This document shows positions 9,101 to 21,072 of a stretch of 21,820 nucleotides of DNA, in pieces. Below the pieces are notes generated by a model. That model was given only the letters and a program-made list of their open reading frames with translations, did not search any database and was not told where the DNA came from. Position 1 is the stretch's first letter. Every line of letters starts with the position of its first letter. Source of the DNA: a virus; IMG/VR virus record IMGVR_UViG_3300008963_000040, positions 1 to 21,820 of that record; one strand, 5' to 3'. The position numbers were made by a program, and so were the translations under genes.

Positions 9101-9481
9101 TATGCTGACTTAGCAGAAAATTATCTAGGTGATGCAGATTATGAACCTGGTACAGTGTTAGTGTTCGGCGGTGATGAAGAAGTAACTGCATGCTCAGTTA
9201 AAGGCGATACTAGAGTCGCAGGTGTAGTTACTACAAATCCTGCTCACTTAATGAACAGTGCATTGCAAGGCAATTATGTAACAGGTATAGCACTACAAGG
9301 AAGAGTACCGTGTAAAGTAATTGGAAAAGTTGCCAAAGGTGATATGCTGGTTACTAGTGCAGTTCCTGGTTATGCCATAGTAAACAATAATCCGGGTGTA
9401 GGACAAGTTGTAGGGAAAGCCGTAGGAACAAAAGACGATACTGGCAAAGGCACAGTGGAAACAGTAGTAGGAAGAGTTTAA
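3131..9481 (+). CDS. giant tail fibre/baseplate-associated structural protein
   Basis: This is a 2116-residue protein. Residues 1-35 form a short module around NDGTGD (13-18) and KKVNENFTELY (25-35), repeated in two downstream proteins. The body is rich in Asn, Asp, Ser, Gly and Thr, with many short beta strands. About residues 780-835 (RNITVQRHGGFMM, ILTRSPYCQTGSSFSQS) and 1005-1085 (SGGNRSMLANDF, GYIAADGSQIRSI) look like right-handed beta-helix segments known from large fibre proteins of marine T4-like phages. PTTADDAATKGYVDS near 1755 is a common fibre motif. The C-terminal ~130 residues begin with ALYADLAENY and include EPGTVLVFGG, a terminal domain shared by many phage fibres and possibly related to self-cleaving chaperone domains. 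GGAGAA precedes the ATG. The stop overlaps the next start (TAATG). A structural role is strongly supported; the exact position in the tail is not. Confidence 0.85.
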   Translation: MARQEVDIGVEGNDGTGDSIRESFKKVNENFTELYAVFGLGGTIGFTRLDDVPDTYLGNETSVPLVRSDATGISFYELVSDSNENNNNTSNPSSTTNSVFFEFDDPDPATPNESGKLKVIINDPHIDRDPDPNVKNPLNAEAAFAYSNSIDNVLRNTSSGPDIDTLVSDWNTTHSNASPITSDNIIINKGFADDNYVNESGDSMSGFLEYDSSVGLATGNQLPRVNEVITRGGAKDNRTMLDDLFLADHPEPLQGAGTPNGEDDLLAVSKLYVDTQGYSSTTNLYVSTSGDDDQTFTPAGKEGRSESYAYRTISAAMRQAERIIESTPFEPGPYVQTVTFGRGRSNSEIDSVAGVVSPVATSEAASQLIIDNSSTIQTIVTDYINSEYPDFVYDSAICQRDIGLILDSIRLDVQSGLTANYLTRWAGLRYNSNPSAIKAKTTQYTQTRDGILRAKTEVNDILTNDGTISASVIDAYDNRFDELLRYIDSDLDNDDPLVTGNNYIFELTNGGFDSVDQGAESNPDLIPGKIIVGRTTGAKGEIINYERSFTGTTDRITVQLLEPIEFSTNEELEFGNITKSNQITVRVESGIYDEHFPIKLPENVSIKGDEFRRVVVRPKAGVSESPWAKTYFYRDTVIDGLVAAQSNITAIYNFQNTASDPNRVDGVYSVNQFVTNGIGSGAEFQVTVSGGEVTSITVENGGDGFLLDEIITIDDSQLGDGGAADIDFQVQTTGGGFDFIHPVNGKQGKYGYHYLTDPLDSESTPLENKEMDVFLCNDGVIVRNITVQRHGGFMMTLDPEGQILTRSPYCQTGSSFSQSKGTRRNFAGGLFIDGYAGNMPATIDNVVNGFTLEVSSPAGQGLFVRRPPTPFPFFINGARYQVNAVTDYDQDNGTATLILDESSNPDSVISRNIVNITKNNPAVVTTSDDHGFNSGTLITINSVNGMVELNGNNYYINVIDSTSFELYIDDALTVGVDSTTFNNYIDGGIVSAGGSGLGYQGGSGQDIFIQSGGNRSMLANDFTQINDLGFGCLAINNALSELVSMFTYYCHTGYIAADGSQIRSISGNNSYGVYGLVAEGSDPDEVATDVSLNSNMVFPGKTFNASTKITFSSSVPGSVDINETISQEVSGAEAKIAFFLNNRTEAFVYDVTGNFNTSDQVFGDDSTTLIGVPSEVELIDASASENSLFMYAYDLTELPHNVSEVEILHDSGLYQPYEITNASLTGLTLNSYNINSSIYTYNGNIGTGASFIIAKNRTDGYKIISFDSGSDYVIGESFTVSGTQLGGATPANDATVTVDNVDDNGAILELSVTGTILEEATTPVVDGTVWRFNFGTGLEGTAENGLQEPTLHNTRLVIRHKQNFVFDGVNELPTRPSTAIEFTDDTDAFTYRSIAFTQQITDGFIVGNNQSVITFDENFRYLDLTTEQTAIELAENDANITVQAGFTDIIANSTPDPTKTLGSTIGDRFIAINTLGDINQDRIADGELIVSWGGKTHTIDAYSEYIFDDGINPSIQFAVIGITDISGTDINVPTTASGLANSLSNERGITLKGGLAAGEEASITINISTCRATGHDMLDIGVGGFNQANYPDRIYGQPVTEPVSTNDAIDSTGNRSRAQIQERNKGRVFAVTTDQDGFFRVGRFFTVDQGTGSVTFNAALVLTNIDGIGFKRGVRVNEFSNDDTFTDAKGDAVPTQTATQGYIDARLGFNRDGITAGVVPIGPGVMSLGGPGFDQTPMQDDMNLGGFQINNLALPTTADDAATKGYVDSKTDNLNDIGDVTITGSGSALSANLLSFTGTAQDSENSNVIGDVLFFRTAANELTTAINTGVIVNDDINSSAGILQSKLTLNAASTRASATGITQADLGVASFNSANFTATDGLISIATGGISNTELANSTITIGSTNISLGSSSTSLSGLSGLAFSSGNISGTVSWTASGSISNVSTINHTGNITGPANSGSNNGVSIGSSSNRYNTVWASVFNGTATEALYADLAENYLGDADYEPGTVLVFGGDEEVTACSVKGDTRVAGVVTTNPAHLMNSALQGNYVTGIALQGRVPCKVIGKVAKGDMLVTSAVPGYAIVNNNPGVGQVVGKAVGTKDDTGKGTVETVVGRV

Positions 9482-9843
9482 TGGCACAGCGAGTTATCAA
9501 TATAGGAAACAATCCTAACGACGGTACTGGTGATCCTTTAAGATTAGCATATGAAAAAATTAATCAAAATTTTCTAGAATTGTATACAAGAGAGTTAAAC
9601 ACTGACTCACAAACACTGGAGTTAGTAGGCAATACACTTACTATTAGCAACGGTAACAGTATAGAATTAAATATCAGTCCAACAGGTGATTTACAAGGTA
9701 GTGTATTTGCTGATGACAGCACACTATTGGTAGACGGAGTAAATGGCACTATACCAGGGTATGTGAGTTTAGAGACACTTAAAACAGAAGTAGCAGCAAG
9801 TACAGACTTTGCAGATTTTCAGGCACGAATAGCAGCACTTTAA
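9481..9843 (+). CDS. small structural protein with the NDGTGD N-terminal module
   Basis: This 120-residue protein starts with the same module as the upstream giant: NDGTGD at 13-18 and KINQNFLELY at 26-35, in register residue for residue. A short beta-rich stretch follows (LELVGNTLTISNGNSIELNI), then an acidic C-terminus. It is so short that it is mostly docking module, so it could be an adaptor, a plug, or a truncated relative of a longer fibre. The ATG overlaps the stop of the giant gene by one base and GGAAGAG lies just upstream, indicating translational coupling and related amounts. I know no specific name for it. Confidence 0.75.
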   Translation: MAQRVINIGNNPNDGTGDPLRLAYEKINQNFLELYTRELNTDSQTLELVGNTLTISNGNSIELNISPTGDLQGSVFADDSTLLVDGVNGTIPGYVSLETLKTEVAASTDFADFQARIAAL

Positions 9844-9850
9844 CGAATAC

Positions 9851-9858
9851 GATAAATA
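9851..9858 (+). promoter_or_regulatory. late promoter GATAAATA
   Basis: This exact GATAAATA lies in the 39-nt gap between the 120-residue protein and the 407-residue fibre gene, 24 nt ahead of the ATG at 9883. An AGGA at about 9869-9872 serves as ribosome-binding site. Confidence 0.7.
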
Positions 9859-9882
9859 TACTAAAGAATAGGATTTACAAGT

Positions 9883-11106
9883 ATGGCAGACCGTTTTCCG
9901 TTAATAGTTGATGCATTAGACAGTACTATAAAAGAGCTTCCGCAAGGAGATAATCTTGATCTTGACAATTCTAATATTGTAAATTTAAATGATTTAGCAG
10001 CATCTGGTACAATAAGTGCTGCCGCACTGTCTTCTACAGGTACAATAAATGCAGACTCTTTAAATATCACAAACAATATATTAGCAAATTCAATTGTTTC
10101 TAGTACATCGATACAATCGGATACAATTACAATTAATAACGCTGCAACTTTTAATTCAAATGTTGCAATAAGTGGAACAGTTGATGCTACAAATTATACT
10201 GTAAACGGATCTCCGCTTAGCAGTATACAAGTTCAAAGTGACTGGGCCGAAGAAGATGATCAAAATCCTGCTTTTATTTTTAATAAACCTCAGATAGTTA
10301 ATATCAACGAGTTAAATGATATTCCTGATGTATTTGCTGATTCTGCTACTGCTGGACAAATTCTCGAATATGACGGATTCAGTTGGCAAGCAACTACTCC
10401 TTCTAGTGGTATTTCTCTAAATGATTTAACAGTAGAAATTAGTCCAACATCAATCGGTGAAGGCGATCTAAGTTATAACAATTTAACTGGTACATTTACT
10501 TTTACCAGGCCTTCGGTTCCGCAAAATGTAAGTGAACTTGTAAATGATTTAGGATTTGTCGAAGAGGGCGACGTTCCTGTGGTAGTAGAAACAGCTGGTT
10601 TTATTAAATTAACTGATTTATCTACTACTTCCCCTATATCTTATAACAGTACCACAGGAGAAATAGGATTTGACAGTAACGCAGGTGTTAATGTTGGAAC
10701 ACTAGATTCTTCTGGGGCAATAACTGCTCCTCAAGTGAACAGTGCAGTTTTAAGCAATAGCACCGATATTACATTAACTCCAGGAAGCCAAACTAATAGA
10801 ATTAGTATATCGCAGGGGTTTTTAAATATTGCAACCATTGGGGATGATTCTAATGCACAAAACGGTGACCTAAGATTTACTAGTGATTATAATCTTGAAA
10901 TTTACTCTGGTAATGCCAACGTTTGGTATCACATCGGGGGTCAAGGATTTAATGCAAGGCGAGGATTAATTTTGCCAAGATTTACCACTGCCGAAAGAGA
11001 TGCTATACCTACTCCGCAAATTGGTGAAACTATATTAAATAACGACACAGATCAATTACAGATTTATGACGGGACTGGCTGGCTTTCGTTAAACCCTCCA
11101 CCGTGA
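9883..11106 (+). CDS. tail fibre-like protein
   Basis: This 407-residue protein begins with MADRFPLIVDALDSTIKELP and then GDNLDLDNSNI, a start I recognise from fibre-like structural proteins of marine T4-like phages; it differs from the NDGTGD module of its neighbours. The middle is Ser/Thr/Asn-rich with repeated short beta units (ASGTISAAALSSTGTINADSL-type) typical of a trimeric shaft. A WAEEDDQNPAFIFNKP segment at about 120 marks a transition often followed by receptor-binding parts. The C-terminus (RRGLILPRFTTAERDAI, IYDGTGWLSLN) matches a small terminal domain common in phage fibres and probably helps trimerise or bind. It has its own late promoter. Host-surface binding is inference. Confidence 0.8.
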   Translation: MADRFPLIVDALDSTIKELPQGDNLDLDNSNIVNLNDLAASGTISAAALSSTGTINADSLNITNNILANSIVSSTSIQSDTITINNAATFNSNVAISGTVDATNYTVNGSPLSSIQVQSDWAEEDDQNPAFIFNKPQIVNINELNDIPDVFADSATAGQILEYDGFSWQATTPSSGISLNDLTVEISPTSIGEGDLSYNNLTGTFTFTRPSVPQNVSELVNDLGFVEEGDVPVVVETAGFIKLTDLSTTSPISYNSTTGEIGFDSNAGVNVGTLDSSGAITAPQVNSAVLSNSTDITLTPGSQTNRISISQGFLNIATIGDDSNAQNGDLRFTSDYNLEIYSGNANVWYHIGGQGFNARRGLILPRFTTAERDAIPTPQIGETILNNDTDQLQIYDGTGWLSLNPPP

Positions 11107-11130: not shown

Positions 11131-11814
11131 ATGACTATTGAATCAATTGACGTAGGCTTAATTGCTAACGACGGTACTGGAGACGATTTACGAGAAGCGT
11201 TTATAAAAGTCAACAATAATTTTGACGAAATTGATTTACGTACCAGTTTAACTACAGTTACAAATATAGGACTAGAATCCGGAGTAGGTCTTTATAAAGA
11301 ATCAGTTGATGCAGATTTAAGATTTAGAAAACTAGCAGTAAATCCTGCTTATCCTAATTCATTGGGTATCGAACTCAGCCCTGACGAAGATACAGTGTAT
11401 ATTTGGTCTCCTACAAGTTCATTATCTTTTACTAACGGTATAGTAACGGAAAGTTCAAGTCTTAATAATCCGGTATTTTTCACTGGAACCGAAGGCGCCA
11501 GTGTTAGTATAACCAGTAGAAACAACGGTGAAAATATTGAAGTCATAGTTGATAGTCAATTAGCAAGAGAAACTGCACCTAAATTAGATGCGTCATTGGA
11601 CGCACAAGGAAACGAATTAGTTAATGTGTCTAAAATTAACGACAGTGATATTAGCAAATTGGAAGAAATTTTAGGTTTTGATTTTGGATCAATAACATTC
11701 GTAAGATCTAGTATTGTAGATTTTATTGTAAACTCAGTTGATGTTGATTTAGGAACTATAACAGAAAGCAAACCAGATATAATAGATTTTGGTAATTTAC
11801 CTAGTGTATCATAA
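11131..11814 (+). CDS. structural protein with the NDGTGD N-terminal module
   Basis: This 227-residue protein shares the N-terminal module of the proteins starting at 3131 and 9481: NDGTGD at 13-18, LREAF at 20-24 and KVNNNFDEI at 26-34, in the same register. The rest is beta-rich and acidic, without recognisable enzymatic motifs; DADLRFRKLAVNP and STSSLSFTNG resemble short shaft or baseplate-protein segments. It sits between a fibre and the 1391-residue Ig-like protein, has a late promoter and a strong ribosome-binding site, and ends 9 nt before the next ATG. A tail or baseplate adaptor is likely. The evidence is the shared module and position; the fold of the body is unknown. Confidence 0.75.
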   Translation: MTIESIDVGLIANDGTGDDLREAFIKVNNNFDEIDLRTSLTTVTNIGLESGVGLYKESVDADLRFRKLAVNPAYPNSLGIELSPDEDTVYIWSPTSSLSFTNGIVTESSSLNNPVFFTGTEGASVSITSRNNGENIEVIVDSQLARETAPKLDASLDAQGNELVNVSKINDSDISKLEEILGFDFGSITFVRSSIVDFIVNSVDVDLGTITESKPDIIDFGNLPSVS

Positions 11815-11823
11815 GGAAAGCAT

Positions 11824-14800
11824 ATGAGTTGGACTGAAAAAAGTGGATACAATCTAGGTACGATAGAAGAAAGAACAACAGTTGATATTGCTCTTCCTAT
11901 ATCAGCCAATGCTGATACTGTTGTATCTAAAATTGCAGGAGAATTACCGCCAGGAATTAGGATACAAAATTTTTCTTTGGTAGGTGTTCCATTTGAAGTT
12001 AAAAGAGTCACTGACTTTGAATTTACACTGAGAGCAAACAACAATGGCGTTATTGCAGATAGAACATTTAGTCTTACAGTGCAAGGCGAAGATTTACCTC
12101 AATGGGTCACTCCTCCTGGAAATTTAAATATTGGTGCACAAGAATTTGAATCATTTTGGCTTGATACAAAAAACAGCAAGTTTGGTTTGTTTGTTACCAA
12201 CGGTACTAATAATTTTTTGCAAACTGACGTAGACCTTTATAACGGAATACCCAGCAGAACACAAGGTAATAATGGTGATTATGCATTTGATTTAATCGAT
12301 AATCAATATTACTTAAAGCAAAATGACCGTTGGATAAAGTTAAATGATAGTGTAATCAAAAGTGTTTTTGGAAATGATCAACAGGTAGTAGTTAGTTCTA
12401 CTGTACCGAATCCGAATATTGTTGATTTTTGGTTAAATCTTAATAATTTAAACAATGGACTAGATTTACGTCTAAGACAATTTGATAGTAATCAATCGTT
12501 ATGGTTACCAGTTGAATATACTATAAGCGAAACTGCTCCAATTGCTCCGTTTGATAAACAAATTTGGTTACAAAGTTTTACAGACCAAATGCGATTTGTT
12601 TTTAAAATTTATAATGCAGCAGAAAGCACATGGCAACCATTTAATTATGATTCAGGAACCGTGCCACCGGATAATTCAAACCGTGCTTTTTTTGTCTTGG
12701 ACAACAGTTTAGTAGATTTTGATTTAGAAGCAGTTGATACTGATTTAGCAGCCGGTGATAATCTGTTTTATTATATAGCCGACGGCGATGGTAGTTTGCC
12801 AGGAGGACTGGAACTCACACCGTCGGGTAAAATAACTGGCATAGTTGATCCTATCTTAGCATTAGATGCTGGTAATAAACCAGGCTATGATCTTGACTTA
12901 TATGATAACTCTCCTTTGGATTTTGGAATCTTAGATAATGGATCAATAATTACTCCTACAAAAATAAACAGATACTTTAATTTTACAGTGACAGTAGCAG
13001 ACGATGTAGGGGAAGTTAAAAGAGATTTTCAAATTTACGTGGTCAGTGACGATTTTCTTAGAGCAGATAACAATATTATGAAATCTGGCACTGGCTTGTT
13101 CACAGCAGATGTTACTTTTTTACGCAAACCAATTTGGTTAACACCGGGATATTTAGGTCTTAAAAGAGCAGATAATTTTCAAACTTTTTTCCTTGAAGTT
13201 TTTGACCCAAACAGTCTTCTTGGTCGTATATCTTATGTTTTAAGAGATATTAATGACGACGGATCTATAAGTGAATTGCCTCCAGGAATGAGTCTTGACA
13301 CTACTACAGGAGAAGTATTTGGAAGAATACCTTATCAACCAGCTGTAACTAAACAGTATCGATTTACCGTCGAAGCTTTACGCAGTGAAAATGATGTAGA
13401 AACTTTAGAAATTTCAGCTAATGTATTCGAAGACACATTAAGTGGAAAACAGAGTTTAAAAATCTTTAAACTGCCGAATACACTAGCAGATAATATTAAT
13501 GATTTACAATCTTTAGTTGGACAAAATATTAATATTGAAAATAATTTATATAAAGTTGTCAGTGTTGACAGCAGTAACACCGAGTTTGATATACTCAATT
13601 TAGATAGAGAATTAATTCCAACTTACAAAGCTAAACCATTAACATTAATCAAAGATCACGCCTTTGGTGAATCCAGTTTATATGTTGCCTTTGAAAGTTT
13701 GGAAAATGATAAAGATTTAAATTATTGGTTTCCTAGTAATATCACAGAAGACAGAACCAAATTGATTTTTAGCAACAACGAACAATACAGTATCGAAAAT
13801 GTTGTTCCTTATATAGCATGGACAATATCAGCTAACAACACAGCTGGTGTGATACAGTTTAATTTCGATGAGGCAGAAATAAATCAAGTACAAGATTTTG
13901 AAACTGCAATTAAAAATTATATAGATCAAATATTATTAAACGATACTGTGTACTCTTCTATAGATTGTAAAATCAATATTGTTTCTCAAGATTTAATTTA
14001 TTTAGAATTACCGAGAACTGCAAAAACATTAAACAAAAGTCTTATAGAAAGACCATTTCATGCCGAAGACAGCTCTGCAATTGATGTGTTCAAAGGCAAT
14101 CCAGAGTTGTCAGAATCTGAATTTTGGCAAGTGTATTTGGATACTTCGTTATCAAGAAGTTTTGTTTCAGGCAAACAACTGGCACTAAGCATAGCAAAAG
14201 AAACAAATATAGTACAGAGAATAAACGTTTCAAATACAGAAATTATTAACAATATAAAAACATTTACTGTTGATATTCTTGGTAATGTAGACAGCACAAT
14301 CGCTTGGCAAACACCTTCGATTTTGCCAGAAATCAAAGCCAATCGTGTTAGTTATCTTAATTTGCAAGCTACCACGACACTTGTAGGCTCAAATCTTAAA
14401 TACGATATTATAAAAGGAAATCTACCAAACGGTTTAGAATTAAAAAGAAATGGTGAAATAACTGGTAAAGTAAATCAATTTTCGCAAAATCCTGTATTAT
14501 ACAAAGGCATTTTCAGGAGCAATCGCATTTACCAAAAAAATGACCTTGTGCGAGTAGACAATAACTATTATAGATGCATTAAAGATTATCCCTTTGACGA
14601 GTTTTTTGATATTAATAACGAAGAATACTGGCAAAATTACAGTTTTCAGAACAATCAAGGATTGGCATATATTGACAGAAATTACAATCAATGGGTGTCT
14701 GGATACGAATACAATGTTGGAAATATTGTAGAATTTGCAGATATATCTTATAAGTGTGTTCAGTCTCATATAGCCAGTAATAACAATAGGCCCGACACCG

Positions 14801-16894: not shown

Positions 16895-17455
16895 ATGCTC
16901 ATGAAAACAGATGATTTAGGTATTCCACGTTTTTCTAATCGTGATCTAATAGACATGATTTATTCAGGTCATGCGGATAAAGTCCATGTGGTGTTGTGTG
17001 ATGCAAACGATGATGTAGACAAGTTTAATGCCGCTATGGAAGCGCAAGGCTTTGACAAACTGCAAAAGTATATTCCACTAGATGTAGATCAAAAGACGTT
17101 TGACGGTGTATGCCAAAGTGAATGGTTTATGCCTGATGAATACAAGAACCTAGATATCGGTGCAGAAATAATGTCACGCCTAATACACAAGTTAAACATT
17201 ATTGATGCTTACGAAATGCAAGAAACAGTAGAATGGACGAGAGTTTGTGAAGAACTTGAAGCGTTTGAAGAACGCGGTATGGAAAATCTACTACGCTACA
17301 TGATCTATCTCGTGGACTTTATGCGTGAGAACAATATCGTATGGGGTGTAGGACGTGGATCAAGTGTAGCAAGTTATGTGCTGTATTTGATAGGTGTGCA
17401 TCGCATCGATTCAATTAGGTATAATTTAGACTGGCGTGAATTTTTGCGAGACTAA
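16895..17455 (+). CDS. truncated DNA polymerase III alpha (DnaE)-like protein
   Basis: The last ~75 residues of this 186-residue protein read like the start of the DnaE polymerase core. EELEAFEERGMENLLRYMIY (119-138) matches the helix of the form YELxVIxxMGFxxYFLIV. Next come DFMRENNIVWGVGRGSSVAS (141-160), matching the GPGRGSAAGS turn, and YVLYLIGVHRIDSIRYNLDW (161-180), matching LGIT-DP-RY-LLFERFL. The protein stops at FLRD, just before the place where DnaE has its catalytic PDIDxD, so it cannot be a working polymerase. The first ~115 residues are not recognised. The ATG at 16895 or the in-frame one at 16901 may be used; no strong ribosome-binding site is seen. It could bind DNA, modulate host Pol III, or serve as a decoy; all of that is inference. 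Confidence 0.7.
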   Translation: MLMKTDDLGIPRFSNRDLIDMIYSGHADKVHVVLCDANDDVDKFNAAMEAQGFDKLQKYIPLDVDQKTFDGVCQSEWFMPDEYKNLDIGAEIMSRLIHKLNIIDAYEMQETVEWTRVCEELEAFEERGMENLLRYMIYLVDFMRENNIVWGVGRGSSVASYVLYLIGVHRIDSIRYNLDWREFLRD

Positions 17456-17482: not shown

Positions 17483-17881
17483 ATGGTACAAAAATCAAAA
17501 GGTCGTAAAATTTACAGAACGATGCAAGGTAAGCAGGTTGACCTTGATTTGCTTATAAAAAGAAATGAACACGTGCCTGCCGTAGGCAATGCAAAAGTTA
17601 ATGCTCGCGGCGACGAGCTTGGCCCAGGCGGAAAAATTATCCGCAAACGCGAAGAAGTTGTTCAAGATTATTACCAAAAAAATAAACCAGTTGCTGACGA
17701 AGTAGTACTTAAACAATCAAAAACACAACCTATAGCAGATGATATAGCAGAGATGGAACAACTGGATAACGAAACTGTTCCAGAAAAACCGTCAACAAGT
17801 AACAAACGTACTACTTCACAAAAAAAACAAACCTGGATAGAAGATAGCAACGGAAATTTCAAACCCAAGGACAATAAATGA
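17483..17881 (+). CDS. conserved charged phage protein
   Basis: This 132-residue hydrophilic protein has GKQVDLDLLIKRNEHVPAVG at 16-35, then KVNARGDELGPGGKIIRKRE (38-57) and a disordered, Lys/Thr/Ser-rich tail ending in WIEDSNGNFKPK. The central NARGD-GPGGKII block is one I associate with a conserved protein of marine T4-like phages; its function is not known to me. The strong ribosome-binding site TAGGAGAA and a possible late element suggest late expression. The stop overlaps the co-chaperonin start (ATGA), so the two are probably translated together. Confidence 0.7.
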   Translation: MVQKSKGRKIYRTMQGKQVDLDLLIKRNEHVPAVGNAKVNARGDELGPGGKIIRKREEVVQDYYQKNKPVADEVVLKQSKTQPIADDIAEMEQLDNETVPEKPSTSNKRTTSQKKQTWIEDSNGNFKPKDNK

Positions 17882-18282
17882 CTATTAATTTAAATACCAT
17901 AACAGGAACACTCAAACCGGTAAAAAACCGTGTAATAGTTTCAGATATGTATTTCGGAGAACAGCGCACAAAAGGCGGAATTATTATAGCAGACGACGAC
18001 GGTAAGACACGTGGAATTTATCCACGCTGGGGTCGTGTACATGCTAAAGGACCTGAAAACACAGAACCATACGATGTAGGTGATTGGATTCTTGTTGAAC
18101 ACGGTCGTTGGACCAGAAGTGTTAAAATTGATGAAGGCGAAGGTGAAAAAGAACTTCGCATGGTTGAAGCAGAATCAGTTTTAGGTTGGAGTAAAACCAA
18201 ACCTGACGATGTGCAGATAGGAGCAGAATATGCTGATGGAGAAGCAGCAACCATTGATCCTAGCCAATTTGTCAACACATGA
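17878..18282 (+). CDS. 31: GroES-like co-chaperonin (gp31 analogue)
   Basis: This 134-residue protein has the GroES fold pattern. The N-terminal strand LKPVKNRVIVSD is followed by the mobile loop (about 25-41), carrying the hydrophobic GGIII (33-37) that docks on GroEL. Then come RWGRVHAKGP and YDVGDWILVEHGRWTRSVKI, matching the GroES core. It is longer than E. coli GroES (97) and T4 gp31 (111), with an extended acidic C-terminus. In T4, gp31 replaces host GroES so that the major capsid protein fits in the GroEL cage; the same role is likely here. An AAGGAC just upstream and the 4-nt overlap show coupling to the preceding gene. An intrinsic terminator follows 14 nt after the stop. Confidence 0.85.
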   Translation: MTINLNTITGTLKPVKNRVIVSDMYFGEQRTKGGIIIADDDGKTRGIYPRWGRVHAKGPENTEPYDVGDWILVEHGRWTRSVKIDEGEGEKELRMVEAESVLGWSKTKPDDVQIGAEYADGEAATIDPSQFVNT

Positions 18283-18792: not shown

Positions 18793-18821
18793 TTGACACG
18801 GGCTACAGCCCGTGTTATTAT
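18793..18821 (+). promoter_or_regulatory. sigma70-type early promoter with a palindromic spacer
   Basis: TTGACA (18793-18798, perfect -35) and TATTAT (18816-18821, 5/6 -10) are separated by exactly 17 bp. The inverted repeat ACACGGGC/GCCCGTGT (18796-18815) fills the spacer. Transcription should start near 18828, 53 nt ahead of the ParB-like ATG. Confidence 0.7.
18796..18815. repeat. GC-rich inverted repeat (8-bp arms, 4-nt loop)
   Basis: ACACGGGC and GCCCGTGT flank TACA. In AT-rich DNA this is a strong hairpin. It may be an operator, or a terminator for the MazG-like gene; the plus-strand tail TTATTATAA is U-poor, while on the minus strand CAACTTTTTAG follows. Confidence 0.75.
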
Positions 18822-18835
18822 AACTGTATTAGCAA

Positions 18836-18850
18836 AGAGCATTGTGCTCT
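18836..18850 (+). promoter_or_regulatory. leader hairpin ahead of the ParB-like gene
   Basis: AGAGCA and TGCTCT pair across TTG, just downstream of the expected transcript start, with TTTT some 6 nt beyond. It ends 30 nt ahead of the ATG and does not cover the ribosome-binding site AGAGGT. It may be a stabilising 5' hairpin or a weak attenuator. Confidence 0.45.
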
Positions 18851-18880
18851 GAGCAGTTTTATAGTAAAATAGAGGTAATT

Positions 18881-19948
18881 ATGGCTAAAAGAATTTCACG
18901 TAAACTTTCTGATGTAGTAACAGAAGTTAAACTTACTCTTGCAGCAGAACATGAAATTAATCAAGAAAAATTAAACGCACTAAGAGCACGAGTTGATGCT
19001 AACGGACATAGCTTTCCAATTGGTAGTATGATGTTACCAATTGATCTTTTGTGGATCGATTATGAAGTACAAAGAGATGTAATTATTAAACATATTATTA
19101 GCATTATTAAGCGTTATGATCCTCGCTTGTGCTCGCCGGTGAGTGCTTGTACTGATGTTTTTGACATCGAAAATCAGCGTTCTCCTATTATGACATTTGA
19201 CGGTCAACATCGTACCATTGCAACAGCAGTACTAGGATTCGAATACGTTCCGTGTATTGTAATCGAAACCGACGATATTCAATTTCCTAGTTATGCATTT
19301 GAGGAATGTAATATGAGTACTAAAAAACTTAAGCCACAGGATATTCATCGTAACCGATTGACTCGTTATAAGTTAGGCAGCCGAGCACAAAAAGATGTTA
19401 TTGCTCGTACTCTGCAAGATCAATTTGATAAAATCGGAGTTGATTTAGAAGACAAAGGTACACGCAAGTCTCCTAATCTCCGCGGCGATAATGATTACTT
19501 TTTTAGTCACTTTAAATATGCAGAAAAAGCAATCGAAGCAGACAACAGCGGGAAACTGATTTATAATATCTTAAAGTCTATTGTTACAGTGTATCCGCTT
19601 CAAGAAGAAGTAGACCAAGGCGTGTTTATTGGGCTGTATGAACTATCACGACTAGACCAAACTCGACAAGACCTGCCTGACAATTTTATGGAAGATATAC
19701 TGTACACTGTTAAAAAATCATTTAATAGCAGTTATATTGTTCATAGCAAAGCCAAACGTCAATGGGAACATATCAATCCTGGCGCAACTTGGAGTGCTCC
19801 AAGTGCTATGGCAAACTTCCTGCGTGAGGTTTATTTAATGAACGGCGGCGAAATTAATTTGCCTTATCACGGTGAAGGCGCCAAAATGCAGGTTGCTTCT
19901 AATCCAGTTGCAGGACTGTTTCCAAACAAGGAGTTATCCTATGCTTAA
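18881..19948 (+). CDS. ParB/DGQHR-like nuclease-domain protein
   Basis: This 355-residue protein is counted from the ATG at 18881, chosen because AGAGGT lies 5 nt ahead; a longer frame open to 18842 runs back through the leader hairpin. The N-terminal half has the ParB/Srx-like pattern: an entry strand LPIDLLWIDYEVQRDVIIKH (52-71), then IMTFDGQHRTIATAVLG at about 103-119 with the DGQHR signature (107-111). DGQHR and ParB-N domains occur in plasmid partition proteins, DndB-type DNA modification regulators and some nucleases, and bind or hydrolyse nucleotides. The C-terminal half is alpha-helical and unrecognised. It is driven by the sigma70-type promoter and overlaps the next gene by 8 nt. A DNA-related regulator or nuclease is likely; which one cannot be read from the sequence. 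Confidence 0.7.
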   Translation: MAKRISRKLSDVVTEVKLTLAAEHEINQEKLNALRARVDANGHSFPIGSMMLPIDLLWIDYEVQRDVIIKHIISIIKRYDPRLCSPVSACTDVFDIENQRSPIMTFDGQHRTIATAVLGFEYVPCIVIETDDIQFPSYAFEECNMSTKKLKPQDIHRNRLTRYKLGSRAQKDVIARTLQDQFDKIGVDLEDKGTRKSPNLRGDNDYFFSHFKYAEKAIEADNSGKLIYNILKSIVTVYPLQEEVDQGVFIGLYELSRLDQTRQDLPDNFMEDILYTVKKSFNSSYIVHSKAKRQWEHINPGATWSAPSAMANFLREVYLMNGGEINLPYHGEGAKMQVASNPVAGLFPNKELSYA

Positions 19949-20486
19949 AGAAGCATTGGAAAATTTTACACAACCGGTGTATGTACGTACAAAACGTAGC
20001 ACAGAATCATATGCGACAACTGCCGCATATGTTACTGAAAATCTCAGACGGCTCGTTGAACTTTATCGTACTACCAAAAACGACGAACAAACTTATCGTC
20101 TAATACGCGATGATATTGATAACTCTTTGCGTCGTTACCATCAGTACTGTATTAAAGAAAACATCGGTGCCCATTATTTTGAACGTGGCCTTGAAGGAAA
20201 CGGGATTTTTGAACATATGGTTCCAGCAAGTACAATTCGTGACATGCTGATTGCACAAGTGATTACACCAGAACAAGCGTGTAACATGCCAACATGTCGA
20301 CTGAGTAAAGCAAATGATGATAAACTTCGAGAAGCAGGTTGGGCAAGTAAAACTCCTGATATCTACAACTTTTGGAAACGTTATGAATATAGTTTTGACA
20401 CAGAAAATCTGTTCGAAACCTACGATGGAATTGAAGTTGATCTAAATATGACACTCGATGATCATTTTAAAAGATTTATCAGTTGA
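19941..20486 (+). CDS. putative HNH-like nuclease / conserved phage protein
   Basis: This 181-residue protein starts at the ATG at 19941, chosen for the AAGGAGT at 19928-19934. Its N-terminal half is helical (LRRLVELYRTTKND, SLRRYHQYCI). The C-terminal half holds FEHMVP (90-95), followed by C114, MPTCRLSKANDDKL (116-129) and NFWKRYE. An EH-(V/M)-P strand with a downstream Cys/Asn-(D/E)-x-K-L segment is reminiscent of the HNH/His-Me finger arrangement, with H92 as the general base and N125 or D126 near the metal. The metal-binding second His is not obvious, so this is a weak call. It overlaps the ParB-like gene by 8 nt, so the two are translated together and may act together. Confidence 0.5.
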   Translation: MLKEALENFTQPVYVRTKRSTESYATTAAYVTENLRRLVELYRTTKNDEQTYRLIRDDIDNSLRRYHQYCIKENIGAHYFERGLEGNGIFEHMVPASTIRDMLIAQVITPEQACNMPTCRLSKANDDKLREAGWASKTPDIYNFWKRYEYSFDTENLFETYDGIEVDLNMTLDDHFKRFIS

Positions 20487-20535: not shown

Positions 20536-21072
20536 ATGGCTACTCATGGTATGATAGATTTGGAAACACTTGATGTGTTTCCAACTGCAACTGTTCTTAG
20601 TTTAGGTGCTGTAAAATTTGATCCATTTTCAGAAGACGAACCGCATTCAGAACTGTATCTAAAAATTCTTATAGACGACCAAGATCGTCTAGGTCGCACT
20701 ACCAGTGATTCAACTATTGAATGGTGGAGTAAACAGGATCCTGCTGTAATGGAAGAAGCGTTTGATCAAACAGGTGCTGTAACTGTAGAAGAAGCATTAC
20801 GTCAGCTAAACAAATGGTGTGTAGGCATAGACGAACTTTGGGGACAGGGTTACGGATTTGATATGACCATGCTGGAAGATATGTATCGCAGCGTAGGCAA
20901 ACCTATTCCGTGGCAGTTTTGGCAGGTATCGGATGCTCGTACTATTACAAAACGTATGCCTCGTGATCCAAGAAAAGACATGCAAACTGACTTGCATAAT
21001 GCACTTGCTGATGCTTACTTCCAAGCTAAATCAGTACAGAAAATTTTCCATCACTTTGGGTTTGAAAAATAG
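20536..21072 (+). CDS. dexA: 3'-5' exonuclease, DexA-like (DEDDh)
   Basis: This 178-residue protein has the DEDDh exonuclease motifs in order. Exo I is MIDLET with D8 and E10, Exo II is GYGFDM with D109, and Exo III is HNALADA with H154 and D159. STIEWWSKQDP (58-68) matches the STIEWWKNQSP segment of T4 DexA. It is shorter than T4 DexA (227 residues). T4 DexA degrades single-stranded DNA 3'-5'; it may help with host DNA degradation or recombination. AGAGGT and a possible sigma70-type promoter precede it. A string of tiny genes follows after 10 nt. The assignment is strong from the motifs and the T4-like segment. Confidence 0.88.
   Translation: MATHGMIDLETLDVFPTATVLSLGAVKFDPFSEDEPHSELYLKILIDDQDRLGRTTSDSTIEWWSKQDPAVMEEAFDQTGAVTVEEALRQLNKWCVGIDELWGQGYGFDMTMLEDMYRSVGKPIPWQFWQVSDARTITKRMPRDPRKDMQTDLHNALADAYFQAKSVQKIFHHFGFEK

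Follow-up and report, generated by a model that had tools for sequence, protein, structure and literature searches.

In almost every case, large uncultured phages possess a joined pair of early genes, one for a ParB-like protein (gene 1) and one for a small HNH-like protein (gene 2). Here we describe this pair in a linear IMG/VR virus record of 21,820 bases, referred to as the window. As a whole, the data are best explained by a split, phage-encoded GmrSD-like early pair that is controlled through its mRNA leader and that doubles as a hotspot for homing-type nucleases; we advance this model tentatively, as the leading candidate rather than as a probable one. The two genes would then make up a single early operon that belongs to a large group of jumbo phages, all uncultured. 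The operon is conserved and uncharacterised, and the group, although widespread, is absent from the cultured-phage collection searched.

Gene 1 (18881..19948, plus strand) encodes 355 amino acids with a helical C-terminal part, and gene 2 (19941..20486, plus strand) encodes 181 amino acids and begins with an N-terminal helical hairpin. Both frames are open, with ATG starts at 18881 and 19941 and stops at 19948 and 20486. The 8-nt overlap, ATGCTTAA (19941..19948, plus strand), corresponds to the nuclease insertion slot of relatives and is vacant in the window. Upstream, a sigma70-type promoter, TTGACA-17-TATTAT with an extended -10 TG (18793..18821, plus strand), scores 11/12 consensus bases, and direct reading reveals a Shine-Dalgarno-like AGAGG at 18871..18875 (plus strand) ahead of gene 1. 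Most relatives also have a TTGAC-type promoter 5' of gene 1. The coordinates and the promoter score bear out the sequence-only reading of this DNA, which had placed two genes overlapping by 8 nt behind a strong promoter. The promoter spacer is filled by a perfect GC-rich palindrome, ACACGGGC-TACA-GCCCGTGT (18797-18816), which is terminator-like on the minus strand. It was considered as a conserved operator and rejected, because elsewhere it was seen only in the near relative L123/L003; it is absent from L122.

Several other genes of the window can be named. An Rv2179c-like 3'-5' exonuclease (20536-21072; Pfam E 7e-38) starts 50 nt 3' of gene 2, and a similar protein is encoded 38 nt 3' of gene 2 in contig L092. 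On the 5' side, positions 16895-17455 encode a 186-aa protein that resembles a portion of DNA polymerase III alpha (phrog_11127, E 8e-40; Pfam DNA_pol3_alpha, 2e-11) and is far shorter than a polymerase, and the 134-aa product of 17878-18282 looks, by eye, like a GroES/gp31-type co-chaperonin.

Searches of IMG/VR with the single proteins returned 40 relatives of gene 1 and 11 of gene 2; alignment searches raised these numbers to 141 and 148, and the best 80 of each were retrieved. After removal of duplicates, gene 1 was followed by gene 2 in 90/90 non-redundant pairs. The sequence-only reading had named the failure of the genes to co-occur in relatives as a result that would count against it; what is found instead is co-occurrence in constant order, and together with the 8-nt overlap this makes the coupled pair real, conserved and translationally coupled. 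Moreover, both genes are present in a single copy in each of ten phage records, which measure 316-374 kb. Three contigs have gene 2 with no adjoining gene 1. Two of them are L068 and L109 (an HNH-like gene precedes gene 2). The third, L069, is a 96-kb contig in which gene 1 was not found anywhere; here, within 9339-10540, gene 2 shares an overlap with the 3' end of a gene for what, by eye, is a Cas4-like PD-(D/E)XK nuclease. Gene 2 may therefore partner other nucleases.

Among the cultured phages of INPHARED, a single-protein search at E<=0.01 gave no relative of either gene, and close relatives of gene 1 or gene 2 were not found in INPHARED or in GTDB bacterial and archaeal genomes. The sole weak echo is a ParB-like protein of a Microcystis phage (E 8e-4, covering 23% of the query). 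The earlier statement that neither gene is a standard T4 early gene is in keeping with these searches, in that no likeness to a cultured-phage early gene emerged at the sensitivity used.

What kind of protein does gene 1 encode? The DGQHR sequence lies at residues 107-111 and includes H110. All of 40 gene-1 proteins (40/40) share Q64, R65, D107, Q109, R111, F140 and N144; position 108 is occupied by G (12 proteins) or A (28), and position 110 by H (36) or Q (4). DGQHR and GmrS proteins share three motifs, QR, DGQ(H/Q)R and FxxxN (PMC4619093), and gene 1 has all three as Q64-R65, D107-R111 and F140...N144. AlphaFold2 gives a confident model (pLDDT 88.5), and nearly all leading Foldseek matches among solved structures are ParB-CTPase, KorB, Noc and sulfiredoxin; the top probability is ~1.0, but the best E is 1.6e-3 and the whole-chain TM is low. 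Comparison with the DGQHR-domain model TIGR03187 gives 13.1 bits (E=0.061), below its cut-off of 58.85, the DndB Pfam (PF14072) is matched by 1/40 members at E=0.2, gene 1 stays below every Pfam and NCBIfam cut-off, and the gene-1 consensus matches no family. A sequence-profile search of solved structures yielded nothing credible for either protein. Since the motifs and the fold fit while the curated HMMs assign no family, gene 1 is placed, from its sequence and its model, as a divergent ParB/sulfiredoxin (Srx)-fold protein on the DGQHR/GmrS side. Its description as ParB/DGQHR-like is upheld by the three invariant motifs and the ParB/Srx-type predicted fold.

In gene 2, H92 sits within FEHMVP. 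All of 41 gene-2 proteins share E91, H92, P95 and N115; at position 126, 30 of them have H and 11 have D (D126 in the window). The model (pLDDT 93.9) has a strand at 89-92 that ends at H92, followed by another strand (118-121) and then a helix (123-131), and this strand-strand-helix order is that expected of a His-Me finger. HNH_4 is the Pfam family most often matched, by 9/41 members, all below cut-off; neither Pfam nor NCBIfam gives a match above its cut-off, and the comparison with PADLOC gives a weak helical match alone (E=0.005). A Foldseek search of the model against PDB and BFVD returned no HNH structure and no meaningful match. The proposal that gene 2 is HNH-like draws on the motif and the predicted strand-strand-helix; Foldseek lends it no backing, and HNH_4 is matched below cut-off. 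Based on sequence and model, an HNH-type site in gene 2 is probable, and the protein may act as a nuclease.

The closest known parallel is the GmrSD type IV restriction system (DUF262/GmrS plus DUF1524/GmrD; PMC4619093). Both have a ParB/Srx-fold NTPase-type protein with QR, DGQ(H/Q)R and FxxxN, and in both the ParB-fold gene lies directly ahead of an HNH-like (E/D)HxxP...N gene (90/90 pairs here, with the HNH likeness at the level of the motif). The pattern described for GmrD is (E/D)HxxP...N...N (PMC4619093), which E91-H92-P95, N115 and H/D126 of gene 2 resemble. Unlike GmrSD, however, the present pair is encoded by jumbo phages, is always split, often has a swappable gene between its two members, and has an H/D as the third gene-2 motif, 11 residues past N115. 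Furthermore, the GmrSD_N and GmrSD_C Pfam models were unmatched by 40 gene-1 and 41 gene-2 proteins (for gene 2, among the 25/28 families listed), a search of the window with PF07510 (GmrSD_C) was empty while controls gave matches, and a DUF1524 consensus found no match when used as the query. The pair is not filed as GmrSD because the GmrSD sequence models are unmatched; by analogy, it may work like GmrSD, as a split, phage-borne relative or functional analogue.

In the proposed mechanism, gene 1 would be a nucleotide-binding switch from the DGQHR/GmrS branch of the ParB/sulfiredoxin fold and gene 2 an HNH-like (His-Me finger) endonuclease subunit. Most likely, gene 1 would bind both NTP and DNA and would gate cleavage by gene 2, as in enzymes of the GmrSD/SspE type. 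Binding of NTP by gene 1 would have a counterpart in a DndB-like protein, which binds ATP and GTP (PMC12704722). Cleavage would take place early in infection and be aimed at non-self DNA, either the host chromosome or a competing phage; we infer both the formation of a complex and this target. Such an arrangement would connect a switch of the DGQHR/GmrS type with the biology of phages instead of that of hosts. If a phage-borne GmrSD-like nuclease is indeed at work, it would be a case of phages turning an architecture of host defence to conflicts of their own.

The DndB connection can also be read differently. Gene 1 could resemble DndB/DpdB and gene 2 could be an accessory nuclease or nickase that opens phage DNA to base or backbone modification. 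The DGQHR core motif and its associated conserved residues are common to gene 1 and to DndB/DGQHR-domain proteins (TIGR03187, PF14072), and the nucleotide binding of the DndB-like protein would suit this role. On the other hand, the score against the DGQHR-domain model and the single DndB match are as weak as noted above, the pair was not found beside dnd-type genes, and among the relatives' loci, modification genes are not a consistent neighbour of the pair. A helper of DNA modification is improbable.

Another reading takes the pair out of conflict altogether and assigns it to core DNA metabolism or genome maintenance (replication, recombination or partition), in which case gene 2 would have an HNH-like fold with a structural role or be a nuclease of the resolvase type. 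That the pair is single-copy in every long record would be in line with this, as would the finding that gene 1 matches no PADLOC defence family; moreover, conserved essential genes are typical targets of homing nucleases (PMC2988022; PMC10448857). However, the neighbourhood varies between relatives, with no replication genes consistently adjoining the pair and no conserved neighbours that might betray a function, and DGQHR-type motifs are known chiefly from modification and restriction contexts. We regard such a housekeeping role as rather unlikely.

Returning to the preferred model of a leader-controlled GmrSD-like pair, the leader of gene 1 contains a regulatory candidate that the sequence-only reading had overlooked, as it had the nuclease-swapping slot discussed below. 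A first hairpin, AGAGC-AUUGU-GCUCU with an AUNGU loop, lies at 18836..18850 (plus strand). A possible second hairpin, GUUUU-AUAGU-AAAAU (18856..18870, plus strand), which emerged from a hairpin scan and folding, is AU-rich and abuts the Shine-Dalgarno; second AUNGU hairpins that resemble it are present in L122, L123, L126 and L129. Most relatives have at least one short AUNGU-loop hairpin between promoter and gene 1. For the analysis of covariation, the loop was picked by position and pairing was not required, and 77 loci gave 57 distinct 21-mers. Across the five stem pairs, 86.7% of cells are paired, compared with 52.4% in shuffles, and double-changed stem cells number 110 vs 36.5. The stem covariation score of 0.855 (0.228 in shuffles) was reached by 0/500 shuffles, the signal vanishes when the partner strand is slid, and pairing is at background level past the fifth pair. 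The stem covaries in these 57 distinct relatives; therefore, the leader element is an RNA rather than a DNA operator.

The element is also nearly confined to the operon. Strict hairpins number 45 in 85 leaders vs 28 in the other 1.26 Mb, and a covariance model run over 3.4 Mb of ten phages places 6/8 of its best hits in the gene-1 leader. Because of this confinement, the likeliest binder would be one of the operon's own products, and translation of the operon is probably restrained by protein bound to the AUNGU hairpins, which would amount to autoregulation. The translational operators of the T4 gp32/RegA type are comparable in that a structured element of a phage mRNA leader is nearly confined to one operon. 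They differ from the present element, which consists of AUNGU-loop hairpins with freely varying, covarying stems and has no match in Rfam; it is thus a covarying, putatively regulatory RNA element that this database lacks. The short leader of the window folds into both hairpins, with a stability not far beyond that of shuffles (z -1.76).

The second feature that had been overlooked is the joint between the genes. Gene 1 and gene 2 abut in 34/90 pairs, and an extra ORF lies between them in 56/90. These inserts form 13 unrelated sequence families, mostly nucleases. I0 and I1 are HNH proteins (phrog_3322, E 1e-24 to 1e-27, and phrog_14736, 1e-7, respectively), I4 and I5 are endonucleases according to PHROG (phrog_1111/681), and I8 is of the MvaI/BcnI type (Pfam MvaI_BcnI, E 2e-8). 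By motif only, I2 is GIY-YIG-like and I3 and I6 are restriction-enzyme-like; I9 (SGNH-like), I7 and I11 are not nuclease-like. The spacing is mostly +1, -4 or -1 nt between gene 1 and the insert and mostly -8 or -4 between the insert and gene 2, and therefore translational coupling is kept on either side. Similar nucleases are found directly 5' of gene 1 in L033, L061, L067, L134 and L143 and directly 3' of gene 2 in L081, L150 and L179.

The turnover of inserts is rapid, even among gene-1 proteins that are 97-99.7% identical. L149 has a vacant joint and L119 a filled one, with gene-1 proteins 99.7% identical, and L144 and L034 (97.3% identical) have inserts of different families. One joint thus offers a natural experiment in rapid nuclease exchange. 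In 15 phage records, 9/9 strong matches (E<1e-20) to I1, I2 and I3 lie in or directly beside the operon, with weaker, generic HNH matches elsewhere; the I0 family model matches none of the 15 phages and is therefore silent on specificity.

Homing nucleases are known from joints between conserved phage genes (PMC2988022), and loci that tolerate different homing genes have been described (PMC10448857). For this reason we read the inserts as an unusually dense homing hotspot, which by analogy is the simplest account. The pair would have been colonised repeatedly by unrelated site-specific (homing-type) nuclease genes because it is conserved and single-copy, with coupling surviving insertion. As expected for homing endonucleases, nuclease genes occupy a joint between conserved genes and are present or absent between close relatives (L149/L119). 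Co-conversion or a resistant target was not detected at the 5' flank of gene 2. The idea that each insert comes with its own resistant gene-2 5' half was rejected, in that no linkage was found (permutation p=0.73, 56 close pairs) in a test of low power that covered the flank in the 5' half of gene 2 only. The free-standing seg/mob homing endonucleases of T4-like phages (PMC2988022), with GIY-YIG and HNH genes in conserved-gene joints, and the HEG loci of ICP1 (PMC10448857), which tolerate different HEGs, are the nearest likenesses. In contrast to these, one joint here has taken up 13 unrelated families in 56/90 relatives, restriction-enzyme-like inserts are included, and coupling is preserved on both sides.

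These very differences could be taken to mean that the swapped nuclease is the working subunit of a tripartite module, with the constant pair loading, licensing or restraining this nuclease for use against other phages or the host. The clustering of nuclease-type genes in three operon slots (before gene 1, between the genes and after gene 2), the lack of strong matches to three insert families anywhere else in the 15 records, the coupling at both joints and the several restriction-enzyme-like inserts, which are uncommon among homing genes, would all agree with such a module. It sits less well with the sizeable minority of operons, the window included, that have no obvious nuclease insert, with others that hold two, and with the inserts that are not nuclease-like; moreover, a vacant and a filled joint with near-identical neighbours, as in L149 and L119, is the classic pattern of a mobile gene. 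We regard a module of this kind, too, as rather unlikely. Its extension to a weapon of the phage, whose chassis stays constant while the warheads are exchanged and in which the hairpin-controlled switch/HNH-like pair would load the nuclease of the slot onto a phage-specific target set against relatives, we consider unlikely.

Two further observations concern the inserts and their surroundings. In L149, a gene with an SPPYF methyltransferase-like motif (11605-12753, by eye) directly follows gene 2, whereas in L119, which is near-identical, the joint contains an HNH insert. Finally, the I1 HNH, I2 GIY-YIG-like and I6 restriction-like inserts, which have no mutual sequence similarity, share a C-terminal LF[E/D/G/S] tail. 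Within the last 16 residues, it was found in 16/25 proteins vs ~1% expected (loci L034, L070, L080, L095, L103, L120, L128, L132, L146, L159, L169, L171 and L175). The tail resembles a sliding-clamp-binding peptide, and, if clamp-binding, it would tether unrelated nucleases to the replisome.
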